Assembly: GCA_028753945.1 (NCBI GenBank)
Contig: JAPNXP010000001.1
Span: forward strand, 6,748,501-6,812,500
DNA length: 64,000 nt
Reading direction: 5' to 3'
Source: Hexactinellida sp. DTS-2022
Lineage: Eukaryota > Porifera > Hexactinellida
Position 1 is the first letter of the stretch. Every line of letters begins with the position of its first letter. The notes below the pieces were generated by a model. It was not told the DNA's origin, did not search any database, and saw nothing but the letters and a program-made list of their open reading frames with translations. The translations under genes and the position numbers were made by a program. Positions 47,008 through 58,866 of this stretch are shown piece by piece.

Positions 47008-49310
47008 TATATATGGGGAGTCCATTTCTCTCTCACTTATCTCTATCACTGATATTCGACAAATTAAAACGATGTTTACAGAGATTACTCTGAAACTTAG
47101 CTCTTCCCCTCAGAAGAAACATCCTCACCATATCTCTAAAGCAAAAGGACATATTGAGGAGGCCATTTGAATCTATTAGATGTGATGAAACAGAATCCAA
47201 TTGTTCCGATTTGCCAAGATTACAATTTATTCTTGGCCAACTAGAGAATGTGGGTATTTACAAGAAGAGAAGGAGATATAATGTTCTTACACAAATTCTG
47301 GCCATAAAAACGCATCTGGTTTCTCCTGCTAGTTACAAATTTCTCCAAAGTTCAGAATGCATTTCTTTTCCACATGTTCACACACTAGAAAAGTTGTACT
47401 CTTCTTTTGGGCTGGAAAACGACTCTTGTACTTACTTTATCCAGTTAACTTCTTCTTTTAGTTCTCAAGAGAAGAATGTAATTATTCAGATGGATGAGAT
47501 CCACGTTAAGTCTGATATCTCATATAAGGGTGGGAAATATTTGGTCCTAACTTATCCCCTGAAAACCCCACAAGAACTGTATTTGTTATCATGGTTTCTA
47601 GTTTACACAAAAAATGGTCCTGTATTTCTCGTTTGATACCTTGTGCATCTATATCTGCTGGATACCTTTTTCCTATAATTAAATAAGTCTTGTATTTTGG
47701 ATATCGAATCTTGCGGTTTGAAAGTACAGATTAGTTCTACCGACAATTACCCTTTAAACGTGAACTTATTCAAGTAATTTTCTCCAACTAAACAGTTAGA
47801 GGCTAGTGTACCACACCCTTCTGATAATAAAAGAAAACTCTATGTTACTTTTGACTTTGTGCACATTTTGAAAAGTATTCGAAACAACTGGTTGAATCAG
47901 AAAGATATTCGGAACTTTTCACTTTCCCAACTTTCAGAACATTAAGCTGGATTACTGTGTGTATCCTGTTCAAGTTTACTCTGCATCTTTTAGTGATGTG
48001 CGTCTCCTCTATAATTTAGAGAAAGAATCCTTAGCTAAGTTAGCACCTAGCTTGACTATCAAAGCTTGTTATCCTTCTGCTATTGAGCGCCAAAATGTGA
48101 AACTTGTTTTGAAAGTATTCAACGAATTAACTGTTGCAGCTCTGAAGTTACAGAATGAACTCCGTAACCAAGAAGACCGAAACAATACACACGACTTTGT
48201 TGAAATGCTTCTTCAAATTTGGAAACTGTTCAACATAAATTCCCCACTTAAAGGTAAACGTTGGAATGATGATATCTCAAGACCTCTAACATACCAGGGC
48301 GAACGATTTTCATTCTTGTGTTGTTATTTGGTTAGAGACTTGGCTGGCCTTGCCAGGAAATGTAGGAAAGTTAGTAAACAAACGTTTACCAGTTTTAAAC
48401 ATGCTTGTACTGTATTGCCTCAGATAACCAACCATTAAACTGGATTTTGTGGATTTAACTATCTTTTGACATCCTTTTTACAGACAGATCCATTGGAACA
48501 TCACTTTGGCCTATATCGTATGATGTCAGGTTCAAACTATCATATCTCGTATCTTCAAATCCTTGAAACTGAACGCCGCCTCAAGTTATCCAACATATTA
48601 AAGATTTTTGCTTCACAACAAGATTGTGGCTTATATTCAATTCAGACATTTATTGATTCATACTCATCCTTTGATACGAATAATGGCGATGAAATCGATG
48701 ACCAACTAGTCTGGGATGAAATTGATGATCTAACTTCCATTGAATGTAGTTTACAGATTCAGTCATTAGCTTTTATTGCTGGTTATGCAGTACATAAATA
48801 TATTTTTAAAACTCAGCCATGTCATGTTTGCATTTATCTTTTGACCATTGACAAAGACTATATCTTTGATGAAGATTCACAACCCGAGTTCAGGCTTTTG
48901 CAATTAACTGACCTTGGTGGCCTAAAGTATCCATCTGAGTTTATCCTCGAATCTATAGTAACTTTATAGAAGACGTTAATTGCAATTGAATGCAAAGAAA
49001 ACTTGTTGGCGATATTGATGCAAGGATCATCCAGAAAAATTATTGTGAAAGTAACCTTGATATTCTTAGAAGAGACTGATGCGATTGCTAAATTGAGTTG
49101 CATTTCTTGTGGTGTCTCTATTTTGACTATCCTAAAAAATCTTATTTTCACTTACGCCAACTGTTTACTAGCTAACAAGGTTAATAATATAACTCCGCTG
49201 TTGCATCTAAAGGTATAGAAAAGCGAAAACTGAAGAAGTTCTCACATTAATGAAATACACCAGAAGGTTACTCTTCTATTATTATTATTGTTATTTGAAC
49301 CCACATTATT

Positions 49311-52476: not shown

Positions 52477-52692
52477 TTTATTTATGTATTCTTATCATTG
52501 TTGTTAAGTGAGCAATAAAGACTCAATAGAGAAAATCTATTAATTTACTAGAATTATTTATTATAACAGATTAATTTCTAAATGAAGTTGAAAACATTGA
52601 ACTGTGTTTATCACTTTCTCATCGTACACTACTTCATCCATGGTACATTTGATTGTAGGCCTTATATAGAGTAGGCTATGGTTTATGTTAAT

Positions 52693-53023
52693 CAGTGCCG
52701 GATTAAGGTCTTCGTAGGCCCTAGGCACTTTGAGGACACCAGGCAGCAATTAGGCCCCAAATTTTTCGTAGGCCCTGTAGTATCGGGGCCGGCGCCTAGT
52801 GGAGCTAGGTATATGCCGGCAGGAGGGCACTCGTAGAGTGTGGCAATAAGGAAGCGTGACCACCCAGTCACGGGGTCGAGGGTCACCCTCCTGATGAGTA
52901 CCTGAAATGGTACGAAACCCCACTAGTCATTCTGGTTGGCTAGGCTACAGTTGTCCCATAGTTGGTAGTTTACTACAGGTCTATGCACAGTGCCTACTGT
53001 GCCTATTGGATAATCCGACCCTG
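52693..53023. mobile_element. hAT MITE carrying a hammerhead sequence
   Basis: CAGTGCCGGATTAAGGTC .. TTGGATAATCCGACCCTG, with ATGTTAAT duplicated exactly at 52685-52692 and 53024-53031; 331 bp. The core from about 52792 to 52980 is unlike the ends and may itself be an insert; it holds a CACTCGTAGAGTG hairpin (52829-52841) and the ribozyme-like block. Confidence 0.8.
52872..52921 (+). ncRNA. Type III hammerhead ribozyme (predicted)
   Basis: Order of parts: GGGG (52872-52875) pairing with CCCC (52918-52921) as stem III; TC, giving the GTC cleavage triplet, with cut predicted after 52877; stem I GAGGG/CCCTC closed by TCA (52878-52890); CTGATGA core (52891-52897); stem II GTACC/GGTAC closed by TGAAAT (52898-52913); GAAA core (52914-52917). 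All conserved core positions are present and all stem pairs are Watson-Crick. Hammerheads of this kind occur in retrozymes, Penelope-like elements and some satellites. The short stem III resembles those that act as dimers. Confidence 0.82.
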
Positions 53024-53031
53024 ATGTTAAT

Positions 53032-53276
53032 GTTACAATGGTTTAATAATAATTACAAAGTGTATTAGAATTATACACTAGTTAGCTAATAATCAGCTAG
53101 TTTAGGTAGGAATATATCTTTACGATCACTCCAGGCTAACAAAAGTCATGTTGTTGTCAAAAAGTAGTCCACTAATATCCGTTTCAAGCTAATATTCGTC
53201 CAAATGAATATTCATTTCGAAACGAATATTCGTTCAATCATTTCGAACGAATATTCGGTATTTTCGTCTCAGCCCT
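53032..53276. repeat. Truncated CGAATATTCG-type MITE
   Basis: Right part of the 43715-44112 family, ending CGTCTCAGCCCTA; its left end is cut at the hAT MITE. Confidence 0.65.
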
Positions 53277-55423: not shown

Positions 55424-58400
55424 ACTCCTTTAAATAAGGACTGTAGGCGCTCATTCTCGGGTCCTGGAACTTGGGTCCATTAGTTATTTCGTAATCGGTT
55501 AAAGTTAGACACATAAAATGTATTATTGTCGTATAGGAAGTCATAGTTAAGGAGTCCAACGGTCATATTGGATTATCGAAAATATTTGTGGAATGTGAGT
55601 TATGCGGTTTTCATACCTTTCCATATATGGTAATATTGTTAAAATCTCGAGATCAGTTAGCTTTAGCCATATGAAATGTATTATTGTCGTATAGGAAGTC
55701 ATAGTTAAAGAGTACAACGGACATATTGGATTATCGAAAATATTTGTGGAATGTGAGTTATGCCGTTTTCACACCTTTCCATATTTGGTAATATTAATAA
55801 AACCACGACAACAGTTAAAGTTAGGCATATTTAAATATATTATTTGCGGATAGGTAGTATAATATGGTGAGTTATTTGTCGTGATAATTATTTGCTATAC
55901 CTATAATGTATAAGTTACAAGTTTGGATTCGATTAGTATGATTGTTAGCATGGAGAAAGTATTATCAGTACATTGACTGTATCTAAAAAGTGTTCACAAT
56001 TAATCATTTTCTTCTTGTAACTTTTCCCTCCGTCGAAGACATCCAAGCTGTTGCTCACGATCACTGAAGTGGTTAACTTGAGCTTTTAAGAGAGTATTAA
56101 CTAATGAGTATAGAGCTACATTGTCTTCAGCAAGAGGATGATCAAAAAATGAAAGGACTTTAATTACATATGTTCGACAACTATTTTTTACCCTCGGAAG
56201 TAACTCAAGAAGATTAACAGCGTTTTGAACAAAACAAGTCGTGGACAATGTTGGCACTCTCAGCCCTCCCCTGTCGAGTTCTTGTAGAAATTCAGTAGAT
56301 ACTAGCAGGTCCCCTTCCATTTCACCATGCTTAAATGTTATATATCCAGCAATAAACACTACTTTGTGCTTTAAAGTATTGCCTGAATCAAGGAGGAGTT
56401 GCGTGTCCTCAATACTGATCTCTTGCATTAGCTCTATATCTCCCAAACTGACTGGCGTTGTACATTCTGGGCAGGTAAACTCTGGAATTCCTTGAGGAAT
56501 TATATTGTATTTCAGCAACTGATGTAATCGCTGTGCTTTGGCTGCTGAGAGTACATCAACAATATCATGTAAAAGTTTCCTCCATTGCGCTGTCTGGCTT
56601 GTCCAAAAAAAATTTCCAAGGGGTCTTGTGAGAAAACCGCTGGAAGAACATACTGAAAATTGTGGTAAGTTAATAGATAAGTGGCGGCTACAATACTATA
56701 TTTTGTTGTGATCTTAAAAGCATCGGCAGTGAATTGAGTAAGCTTTTTTTGTCGAAATCTTCCTCCTTCCCATCGACAGGAATCTATAACGTCGCACATT
56801 GCTGATAGTTTGCTAAAGTTGTCACAATTCAACGTCCAAGGTGCACGATGTGGATCACGAAGATGTATTGTGCTAAACTTGTCTTTTACCGTTTTACGTT
56901 CATCATTCTGAACCAGTTTGTTACCAATGTGAGAAATTTAATAGTTCCCTCCTGATAGTCGATAGTACCTTTAAGGCTTTGAATGCGGCAATCGTCTTTT
57001 CATGAAAGACTTGACATACCAGCGGTACGCTCTGTCTTTGTAGTGGTTTAGGAAAGACTGAGGTGTGAGTAAGCTTTGTAAGACGTAATGGCATCTTTTT
57101 ATCTTCCTCATATAGAGCTTGGATGTCTCTCCAACATGCCAGATATTCTACACCGTTCTCTTTAAAGGACAATTCCTTGGTCCTCTCAGTTATCCAATTA
57201 TTCCTCAAATTTTTTAGGATATGAACGTAATCATAAATTAAGTACATATCGACACCGCATACCTTCACTTTCCCAGGACCACCAAGTAAGCGGTACAGAC
57301 CTTGATTTAGCGGACAGTTATCACAGATAAAGGATATTGGCTGGATATCCATTTTTCTCAATCCTTCTTCAATTGTTTCCATCAAAATATCTCGAGCCTT
57401 CGCTGCATTTATTTTAGAAACTGGATGAACACCAATCACTAAGCGTGGTCCTCCGTGATGGCAAACAATTTCTATACAAAAGGCAGATGTAGCAACTGCC
57501 TCTGTGGCATTAGTACCATAACCAATGATGTGGCCGCCTGTTAAGCGCGTGGTCTTCAATAACTTTACCTCATCAAATAGTATGTTAACAAGACGTTGCT
57601 CAGGTTTCAGTACTTTGAATATTTGCGGCAGATTGGTGTTTGCGTAACTACGAGACATTAAATTTCGAACAAGTTGTTCCCTAGGGAGCTTTATCATTCT
57701 GTAATTTCTTATAATCCTGTATGCAGCTGGAGATATACAAATAGGTTCTCCAGCAAAAATCAGTAGGTGTTTGTATACCGGATATTATTATCTGAATTCA
57801 AGAGAAATTCTACCTGGGTCTCTAGGAACTGAAAATGTGTTGATTCTTGTACATCTATTGTCATTTGTTTCAATACTTTCTTAAAGCAGAAATACTGAAT
57901 CACTTTACTCCCTAATTCATCCACCATGAAAACTGTCAATTTTTCTCCGTGATTTCTAACGCTGAATGATGTGAATCGTCTTTCAAATTCTTCTACAAAA
58001 TTGGTGAGATCCAAGATATTATCACACTTGTCAATATACTCTCTCTGCAATTTATCCCTTACAGCAGAAGTAGTCTTTCTTGTTGGCCTTGGATGTGTAA
58101 TAGACTGCTTCTGACAAGACTTGGGCACACCTTTAAAATATGTAGGAGGTCCAATTGGTCGCTTTCCTCCCCGTACAGTTACCAATTTGCATTCAAAGTG
58201 TGATGAACAGACAAATATCTCTTTTCGATCATTAAGACTCCCAGGTTCATTAGGCATGGCCTCAATACATCTTGTGCTTTCAACGCTATCTGTGGGAAAA
58301 TTGACAACTTGACTATATGGTTCCACATCATAGTTACCACGACAGTTGAATGCTGCACAACATTTTGGCATGATTACTGTGTTGCTTGTGAGATTATATG

Positions 58401-58866
58401 CTAAATTTTGTAAATACGAAATAAAATGTAAAAACTAAGCATTATTATTCTTTACCAACAACATTTAGTTCGATAATACTTTCTCCATACTAACAATCAT
58501 ACTAATCAAATCCAAACTTGTAACTTAATTAAACATTAGAGGTATAGCAGATAATTATAACGACAAATAGCTCACCATATTATACCACCTATCCGAAAAT
58601 AATACATTTCATATGTCTAAAGCTAACTGATCTCGAGATTTTAACAATATTACCATATATGGGAAGGTGTGAAACCGGCATAACTCACATTCCACAAATA
58701 TTTCCGATAATCCAATATGACCGTTGGACTCCTTAACTATGACTTCATATACGACAATAATACATTCTATGTGTCTAACTTTAACCGATTACGAAATACC
58801 TAATGGACCCAAGTTCCAGGACCCGAGAATGAGCGCCTACAGTCCTTATTTAAGGAGTCTATGATT
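55424..58866 (-). mobile_element. P-like transposon with inverted repeats of about 290 bp
   Basis: The right end (58575-58862) is the reverse complement of the left end (55427-55720): TCCTTTAAATAAGGACTGTA, GCGCTCATTCTCGGGTCCTG, CATATTGGATTATCGAAAAT. In the left end part of the repeat is duplicated (55672-55850). A THAP transposase lies between on minus. The exact tips and an 8-bp target duplication could not be fixed. A solo end is at 34914-35228. Confidence 0.8.
55990..58371 (-). pseudogene. THAP9/P-element transposase, frameshifted
   Basis: From 58371: THAP finger at residues 1-90 (CCAAFNCRGNYD..FVCSSHFE..GPPTYFKGVP), a coiled region, then in a shifted frame PICISPAAYRIIRNYRMIKL, the RNase H core with ILFDEVKLLKT and ICDNCPLNQGLYRLLG, the GTP-binding-insert region, FSQDPLEIFFGQARQRNGGN, and a C-terminal domain with VVFIAGYITFKHG. 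Breaks: about 57780, 56925 and 56570, each a frame change without new stops inside the parts, so decay is fairly recent. About 750 residues if joined. Confidence 0.88.

Follow-up and report, generated by a model that had tools for sequence, protein, structure and literature searches.

The window, a 64-kb stretch of glass sponge DNA, contains a 202-bp block (TGTAGTATC...TTTACTACA; positions 52776–52977, plus strand), which is best explained as the solo LTR of an LTR retrozyme, a small LTR retrotransposon of the non-autonomous kind with a type III hammerhead ribozyme in each LTR. The probability of this reading is estimated at approximately 0.88. The block is nested in a MITE; elsewhere in the genome it occurs alone, and related copies form pairs of LTRs. 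The family combines LTR anatomy, primer-binding sites (PBSs) matching tRNAs of the same genome, target-site duplications (TSDs), ends in common with coding elements, and covarying ribozyme stems. It is read here as a metazoan branch of the LTR retrozymes, a plan hitherto described from flowering plants.

Type III hammerhead and its genomic copies

The Rfam model RF00008 (Hammerhead_3) matches the plus strand of the window at positions 52870–52923 over 54 of 54 model positions, with a score of 55.8 bits relative to a gathering score of 48.5 and an E value of 1.1e-9. It is the sole Rfam match at the gathering score within the 64 kb. The cleavage triplet GTC (52875–52877) is followed by the 5-bp stem I with a TCA loop (52878–52890), the catalytic core CTGATGA (52891–52897), the 5-bp stem II with a TGAAAT loop (52898–52913), and GAAA (52914–52917). 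Stem III is formed by the 5′ strand GGGGT (52872–52876) and the 3′ strand ACCCC (52917–52921), which provide the GGGG/CCCC helix and a U-A pair. Cleavage is predicted 3′ of C52877. The complete type III hammerhead of the preliminary description, including every core, triplet, stem and loop that it named, is therefore present. The same description took the short stem III to suggest cleavage as a dimer or with help from flanking RNA. A need for a dimer does not follow, because stem I and stem II each end in a loop in this topology, and according to the cited passages of a review (PMC6155905) type III hammerheads can cleave themselves in monomeric form.

The minimum-energy fold of the hammerhead strand is the hammerhead itself. 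The energy of the fold is ordinary for the composition of the sequence (z −0.30; 71 of 200 shuffles are as low), and it is therefore the covariance model and the genomic copies that carry the case for the hammerhead. A hammerhead-specific 22-mer with at most one mismatch has 313 matches in the genome, compared to 0 for its reversed control. Of the 68 genome matches scored with RF00008, 64 are above the family cut-off; this is a lower bound for the genome, as the first look gave 12319 candidates. A 24-mer from the hammerhead has 0 matches in viral and 0 in prokaryote sequence collections.

The copies used for the analysis of covariation were picked by the presence of CTGATGAG and GAAA. The conservation of the core among them is therefore a result of construction; however, this does not apply to the stem counts. 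There are 125 occurrences of CTGATGAG in the loci examined, with overlapping loci counted again, and the 11 without GAAA were left out. Of the 46 distinct hammerheads, 42 were used; the four dropped were a truncated one, one with a shift of a single base, and two from family C, which differ in length. In the 42 distinct genomic copies, 98.7% of the stem cells are paired, and sliding the partners by 1–3 columns reduces this value to 47–63%. Five of the 15 hammerhead pairs change on both sides, including three of the five pairs of stem II; this number is reached in 9 of 500 shuffles, which do not keep the relatedness of the copies. The number of cells changed on both sides is 40 in the alignment, compared to 11.0 in the shuffles (0 of 500 have as many). 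The covariation score is 0.203, in contrast to 0.083 in shuffles (0 of 500). Copies with mutated cores also exist: CAAAA in L003 and CGAAG in L005.

The covariance score, the genome matches above the cut-off, the 22-mer counts and the covariation together place the hammerhead beyond chance. The covariance search of the window and genome and the comparison of stems among genomic copies had both been proposed in the preliminary description, and both bear out its ribozyme. As far as can be judged from sequence, the block is a real type III hammerhead, for which self-cleavage is predicted.

Solo LTR nested in a MITE

The hammerhead is located within a hAT-type MITE, which is 331 bp long as found (52693–53023) and approximately 125 bp long without its insert, and has the terminal inverted repeats CAGTGCCGGATTA / TAATCCGACCCTG. 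The element is enclosed by the 8-bp duplication ATGTTAAT at positions 52685–52692 and 53024–53031 with 0 mismatches, which confirms the length, hAT-style ends and perfect duplications given previously. The intact hAT-like ends and the perfect 8-bp TSD around the block are what would be expected if the hammerhead were part of a hAT-type MITE family mobilized by a hAT transposase. The preliminary description accordingly raised both a new carrier and a nested capture, and suggested following whether the block travels with the MITE ends or alone.

The MITE ends brought in 17 loci (L039–L050, L052–L056), of which 14 could be bounded on both sides; the flanks of L040 and L041 are identical, and these two are probably a single insertion that was duplicated. 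The hammerhead is absent from all 14 delimited sister MITEs, several of which have 8-bp TSDs. Five of them (L043, L045, L046, L048 and L052) represent the precise empty form with a length of 125–126 bp, and L045 reads ...TTTTCGTAGGCCCTATGCACAG..., which corresponds to the flanks in the window minus the insert. Because of these five empty forms, the 331 bp can be divided into 125 bp of the empty MITE, 202 bp of the insert, and 4 bp. Of 278 candidates, 40 were scored, and among these the MITE ends are joined to the ribozyme block only at the place in the window; elsewhere the block stands by itself or forms LTR pairs, with 5-bp TSDs. Mobilization of the hammerhead as a component of the MITE is therefore extremely improbable. 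The new carrier is thus discarded, whereas the nested capture is upheld by the empty forms: judging by the copies compared, the MITE is only the landing site of this LTR copy. The bases adjoining the LTR, GGCCC on the left (52771–52775) and GGTC on the right (52978–52981), are a candidate eroded target duplication with two of five mismatches when aligned without gaps; the division of the length leaves 4 extra bases.

Just downstream of the MITE, at positions 53187–53257, is a cluster of AACGAATATTCG-like palindromic repeats. Broken ORFs at positions 56003–58434 (minus strand) and 47094–48966 (plus strand) resemble what we take to be THAP-type (P-element-like) transposases. For the formiminotransferase-cyclodeaminase of the window, the closest named match is the protein of the glass sponge Oopsacas minuta, with 75% identity, and three ENA entries are 83–93% identical. 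This points to a hexactinellid host.

Related blocks that stand alone in the genome start with TGTAGTATC and end with TTTACTACA, TTACTACA or GTTATTACA. A script using these ends delimited 21 LTR units, leaving out copies with changed ends such as L008. Eleven of the units are solo LTRs with both flanks foreign. The 5-bp duplication around them is perfect in six (L002, L023, L024, L025, L028 and L051), has one mismatch in two (L018 and L063), and two mismatches in three (L007, L027 and L001, which is the copy in the window); that of L007 matches if shifted by one base. The window's family thus has TG..CA ends and short 5-bp TSDs, with the window copy itself being imperfect.

Full copies have the layout LTR (222 bp), 149 bp of non-coding sequence, LTR, with a hammerhead in each LTR and a distance of 371 nt between them. 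The two 222-bp LTRs are 97.3% identical in L017 and 98.7% identical in L020, at an offset of 371 bp in both, and those of L019 are 85.7% identical at an offset of 386 bp. Perfect 5-bp TSDs are present in the outer flanks of four of the five multi-LTR copies with readable flanks (GTTAC in L017, ACATG in L019 and L020, GATTA in L022), and the outer flanks of L021 contain no perfect 5-bp duplication. Two Rfam hammerhead matches each were obtained for L017 and L020, which have direct LTRs, and for L021 and L022, which have inverted LTRs; in L019 the hammerhead was recognized in both LTRs by its motif. Palindromic copies, in which inverted hammerhead LTRs surround the centre, are L021, L022, L076, L096 and L097. 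The palindromes of L022 and L096 are each located inside one perfect target repeat. Such copies may arise as by-products during reverse transcription or integration.

An apparent 5′ truncation of L003/L034 and L004 was considered as a sign of LINE-like retrotransposition and rejected, since in each case an insertion has split a single LTR, of which 8 bp are repeated at the break. The insertions span approximately 1560–1730 in L004 (8-bp repeat CTAGTCAT) and 930–1490 in L003 (8-bp repeat GGCAATAA). They are possibly hAT-like, in which case the LTRs and hAT-like elements nest in each other in both directions.

Primer sites, LTR families and a candidate coding partner

The 5′ LTRs of L017, L019 and L020 are followed by T and the Ser PBS TGGCGACGAAGGTGGGAT, and those of L021, L013, L094 and L095 by T and the Gly PBS TGGTGCATTGGCCGGGAA; in L096, from family C, TGGTGCATTGGCCGGGAA follows AT. 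These sites pair with the 3′ end of the genome's own tRNA-Ser(GCT) or tRNA-Gly(GCC), both with genes located by ARAGORN, over 18 of 18 nt with the CCA included. The 15-mer core of the Gly site, TGCATTGGCCGGGAA, has eight sites in 112 Mb: seven beside hammerhead LTRs and one in a tRNA-Gly(GCC) gene. The hammerhead beside the Gly PBS is complete in four of the seven (the plus-strand copies of L094 and L013, L021 and L096) and broken or cut in three (the minus-strand copies of L094 and L013, and L095). Of the seven sites of the Ser core CGACGAAGGTGGGAT, four belong to retrozymes, including the rearranged L026, two to coding LTR elements, and one to a tRNA-Ser(GCT) gene. A polypurine tract (PPT) is positioned directly before the 3′ LTR, with GGTGAGAGGAG preceding TGTAG in L017, L019 and L020, and AAGGAAGAAGGAG preceding TGTAG in L095. 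A third stretch standing before a 3′ LTR is CGAGAGGAG, and the tract with which the internal part ends at the 3′ LTR is GTGAGAGGAG or GAAGAAGGAG.

The two coding LTR elements with the Ser PBS, C1 and C15, share with the retrozyme an identical box across the LTR end and PBS of 28 bp and 30 bp, respectively, and LTR starts identical over 9 bp and 7 bp. The upstream stretch of C1 begins with TGTAGTATC, which is taken as the LTR start, and ends with TTATTACA; the PBS is followed by a gag-like ORF. A Pfam search with this ORF matched 0 families directly, and therefore its 314 homologues were used instead, some of which are annotated with Pfam gag or protease domains. The stretch further downstream in the C1 element contains no ORF longer than 65 aa. 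The LTR of C15 starts with TGTAGTA, and its two LTRs are identical over approximately 169 bp (99.4% over 172 alignment columns, with the single mismatch past the LTR end). The PPT of C15 ends GGGAGGAG / GGAGGGAGGAG. The sequence starting after the PBS of C15 resembles the start of the C1 gag (78% over 119 columns, PBS included), and the integrase piece of C15 matches rve_3 with an E value of 3e-6; a PDB search with this piece gave 0 matches. No CTGATGA-type core was found in the stretches upstream of the coding parts of C1 and C15, and there is no Rfam hammerhead match in L106 and L107, which are stretches of coding elements. A partner primed by tRNA-Gly was not found among the exact Gly 15-mer sites, which are retrozymes or the tRNA gene only. 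The gag-like ORF, the integrase piece and general features of such elements suggest that the candidate partners C1 and C15 are of the Ty3/gypsy type.

The primer sites bear on an alternative in which the block would be no true LTR element and would instead represent a pLTR or tandem repeat of the Penelope-like or animal non-LTR retrozyme kind. Retrotransposons of these kinds are the hammerhead carriers reported for animals in the cited literature, and tandem hammerhead copies exist in the sponge as well (L099). However, the hammerhead is of type III and not type I, and the copies have PBSs for two of the genome's own tRNAs, a PPT, TG..CA ends, 5-bp TSDs and boxes in common with gag- or integrase-bearing elements. 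Furthermore, the GC content of seven predicted monomers is 51–56%, whereas non-LTR retrozymes are stated to be below 45 or 50% in the cited part of Cervera and de la Pena 2020 (PMC7229834). A repeat of this kind is very improbable.

The hammerhead LTRs of the sponge form more than one family. When the hammerhead is masked, the LTRs of families A (L017), B (L097) and C (L096) have no similarity except for a 10-bp B–C match at chance level (E 0.14), and the window LTR still matches family A through its resemblance to the LTR of L017. Family C, which consists of L096 and L104, has the Gly PBS, with one mismatch in L104, and a short centre. Its hammerheads do not reach the Rfam cut-off, with scores of 39.8 and 35.0 bits, and the palindrome of L096 has CAGG on both sides. 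Of the 30 RF00008 loci L059–L088, compared outside the hammerhead, 22 resemble family B, one is family A (L066), and seven match none of the A, B and C reference LTRs (L063, L070, L072, L075, L076, L077 and L083). The seven are probably further families. Family B, which includes these 22 loci, L097 and L098, has TG..CA ends and a PPT-like stretch, and its ends have a 4-bp match to an upstream TGT in 8 of 28 cases, compared to 1 of 28 in the control. The pattern of the family B LTR end followed by TGG has 27 sites, relative to seven in the reversed control. Three of the 27 were opened: one is in a coding region, one in a mirrored B copy that lacks a PBS, and one in unrelated sequence. Therefore, no PBS is claimed for family B, for which none was found.

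Predicted life cycle and relation to known elements

A transcript running through both LTRs would cut itself at both hammerheads and release an RNA of approximately 340–490 nt containing the PBS and PPT, which a host ligase would circularize. A tRNA would prime reverse transcription by proteins of the Ty3/gypsy-type element with the same LTR ends and PBS, and the integrase would insert the cDNA with a 5-bp duplication. Recombination between LTRs would then generate solo LTRs, and the window copy would be such a remnant that landed in a hAT-type MITE. Because it has one ribozyme, it could cut a read-through transcript once and could not make a circle. Self-cleavage, the RNA circle, and trans-mobilization and transposition are predicted in this way for the family as a whole.

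Seven hammerhead-to-hammerhead RNAs predicted from families A and B, with lengths of 343–486 nt, were folded, and their stability was compared to 60 dinucleotide shuffles. The monomers are 65–70% paired, and the z-scores of six of them are −3.4 to −7.4. The monomer of L013 is no more stable than the shuffles (z −1.1), and that of L095 starts at a truncated hammerhead. It is also conceivable that the elements are TRIM-like LTRs in which the hammerhead has another role, such as 3′-end formation or escape from read-through, and that linear genomic RNA, not circles, serves as the template. The PBS and PPT are placed as in ordinary LTR retrotransposition, and the copies with inverted LTRs suggest aberrant linear cDNA products. 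Nevertheless, a cut in each LTR would destroy the terminally redundant genomic RNA, and a circle would restore what the cut removes. The predicted monomers are also highly self-paired, as reported for plant retrozymes in the cited part of PMC4918200. The linear route is thus unlikely, although it retains appreciable weight.

Several observations count against the LTR retrozyme reading. Five of the 11 solo LTRs lack a perfect TSD, and the GGCCC/GGTC duplication in the window is imperfect. Cores are mutated in L003 and L005, the hammerhead is broken beside three of the seven Gly PBSs, and the inverted-LTR copies L021 and L022 are not predicted by the simple cycle. The window hammerhead on its own and the L013 monomer fold no better than shuffles. 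The partner gag lacks a direct Pfam match, C1 lacks a long ORF further down, and family B lacks an identified PBS.

Within the cited passages, the literature places the LTR retrozymes in plants, and those of animals are given as non-LTR (PMC7229834, PMC7761336, PMC7936874, PMC11722881). The animal retrozymes are described there as having hammerheads of type I and as lacking an LTR, PBS and PPT (PMC7229834, PMC7761336), and no PBS or PPT was found in metazoan hammerhead repeats according to the relevant part of PMC4918200. The division, as drawn in these sources, is between LTRs, type III hammerheads and a tRNA-Met primer in plants, and non-LTR elements with type I hammerheads but lacking a primer site in animals. 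The full LTR retrozyme anatomy and a candidate Ty3/gypsy-type partner in a glass sponge break this division. Searches of the open-licence PMC literature showed no prior animal LTR retrozyme, and priority is not certain. On balance, it is somewhat more likely than not that LTR retrozymes live in an early-branching animal and have recently moved there, and that in animals, too, small RNA circles made by ribozymes are replicated by LTR machinery. Since at least two families, A and C, which are dissimilar outside the hammerhead, use the same tRNA-Gly site, the union of hammerhead and LTR would, on the same balance, have arisen more than once or predate the divergence of plants and animals. The origin of LTR retrozymes, whether by convergence, transfer or deep ancestry, and the origin of viroid-like circles become testable outside plants, in a 112-Mb genome that gives the positions of the element, its candidate partner and the genes for the primer tRNAs.

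The sponge elements resemble the metazoan non-LTR retrozymes in their animal host and in being small non-coding hammerhead repeats, and their monomer size overlaps with the 170–400 nt given in the cited part of PMC7229834. By contrast, the hammerheads of the elements described there are of type I; LTR, PBS and PPT are absent, the GC content is low, and the TSDs are larger. Type III hammerheads are known from other animals, in HDV-like RNAs, in termite and dipteran genomes (PMC7936874), and as the discontinuous Clec2 hammerhead of mammals (PMC6155905), so that the type alone is not new there. However, as characterized in the cited passages, those ribozymes are atypical in their long helices or have a helix I of very large size, and are not placed in LTRs. 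The TRIM elements Cassandra, Helenus and Ajax, some of which occur in animals, are likewise miniature non-autonomous LTR elements with a PBS, a PPT and LTRs that contain an RNA motif; according to the cited part of PMC10886601, they carry 5S or tRNA-derived promoters and not ribozymes.

The closest correspondence is to the plant LTR retrozymes, as presented in the cited sections of Cervera, Urbina and de la Pena 2016 (PMC4918200). The plant elements differ in their host and in the use of tRNA-Met, whereas the primers in the sponge are tRNA-Ser(GCT) and tRNA-Gly(GCC). The family A LTR of approximately 200–240 bp and centre of approximately 150–206 bp are smaller than those of the plant elements, the distance between cut sites is 343–486 nt in families A and B compared to approximately 700 nt, and the TSD is 5 bp in the window's family compared to 4 bp. 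The two groups have in common a type III hammerhead in each LTR, a non-coding centre, a tRNA PBS, a PPT, short TSDs, frequent solo LTRs and a highly self-paired monomer RNA. Both share the LTR ends and PBS boxes, and little else, with coding elements, which are Ty3-gypsy in plants and candidates of this type in the sponge.
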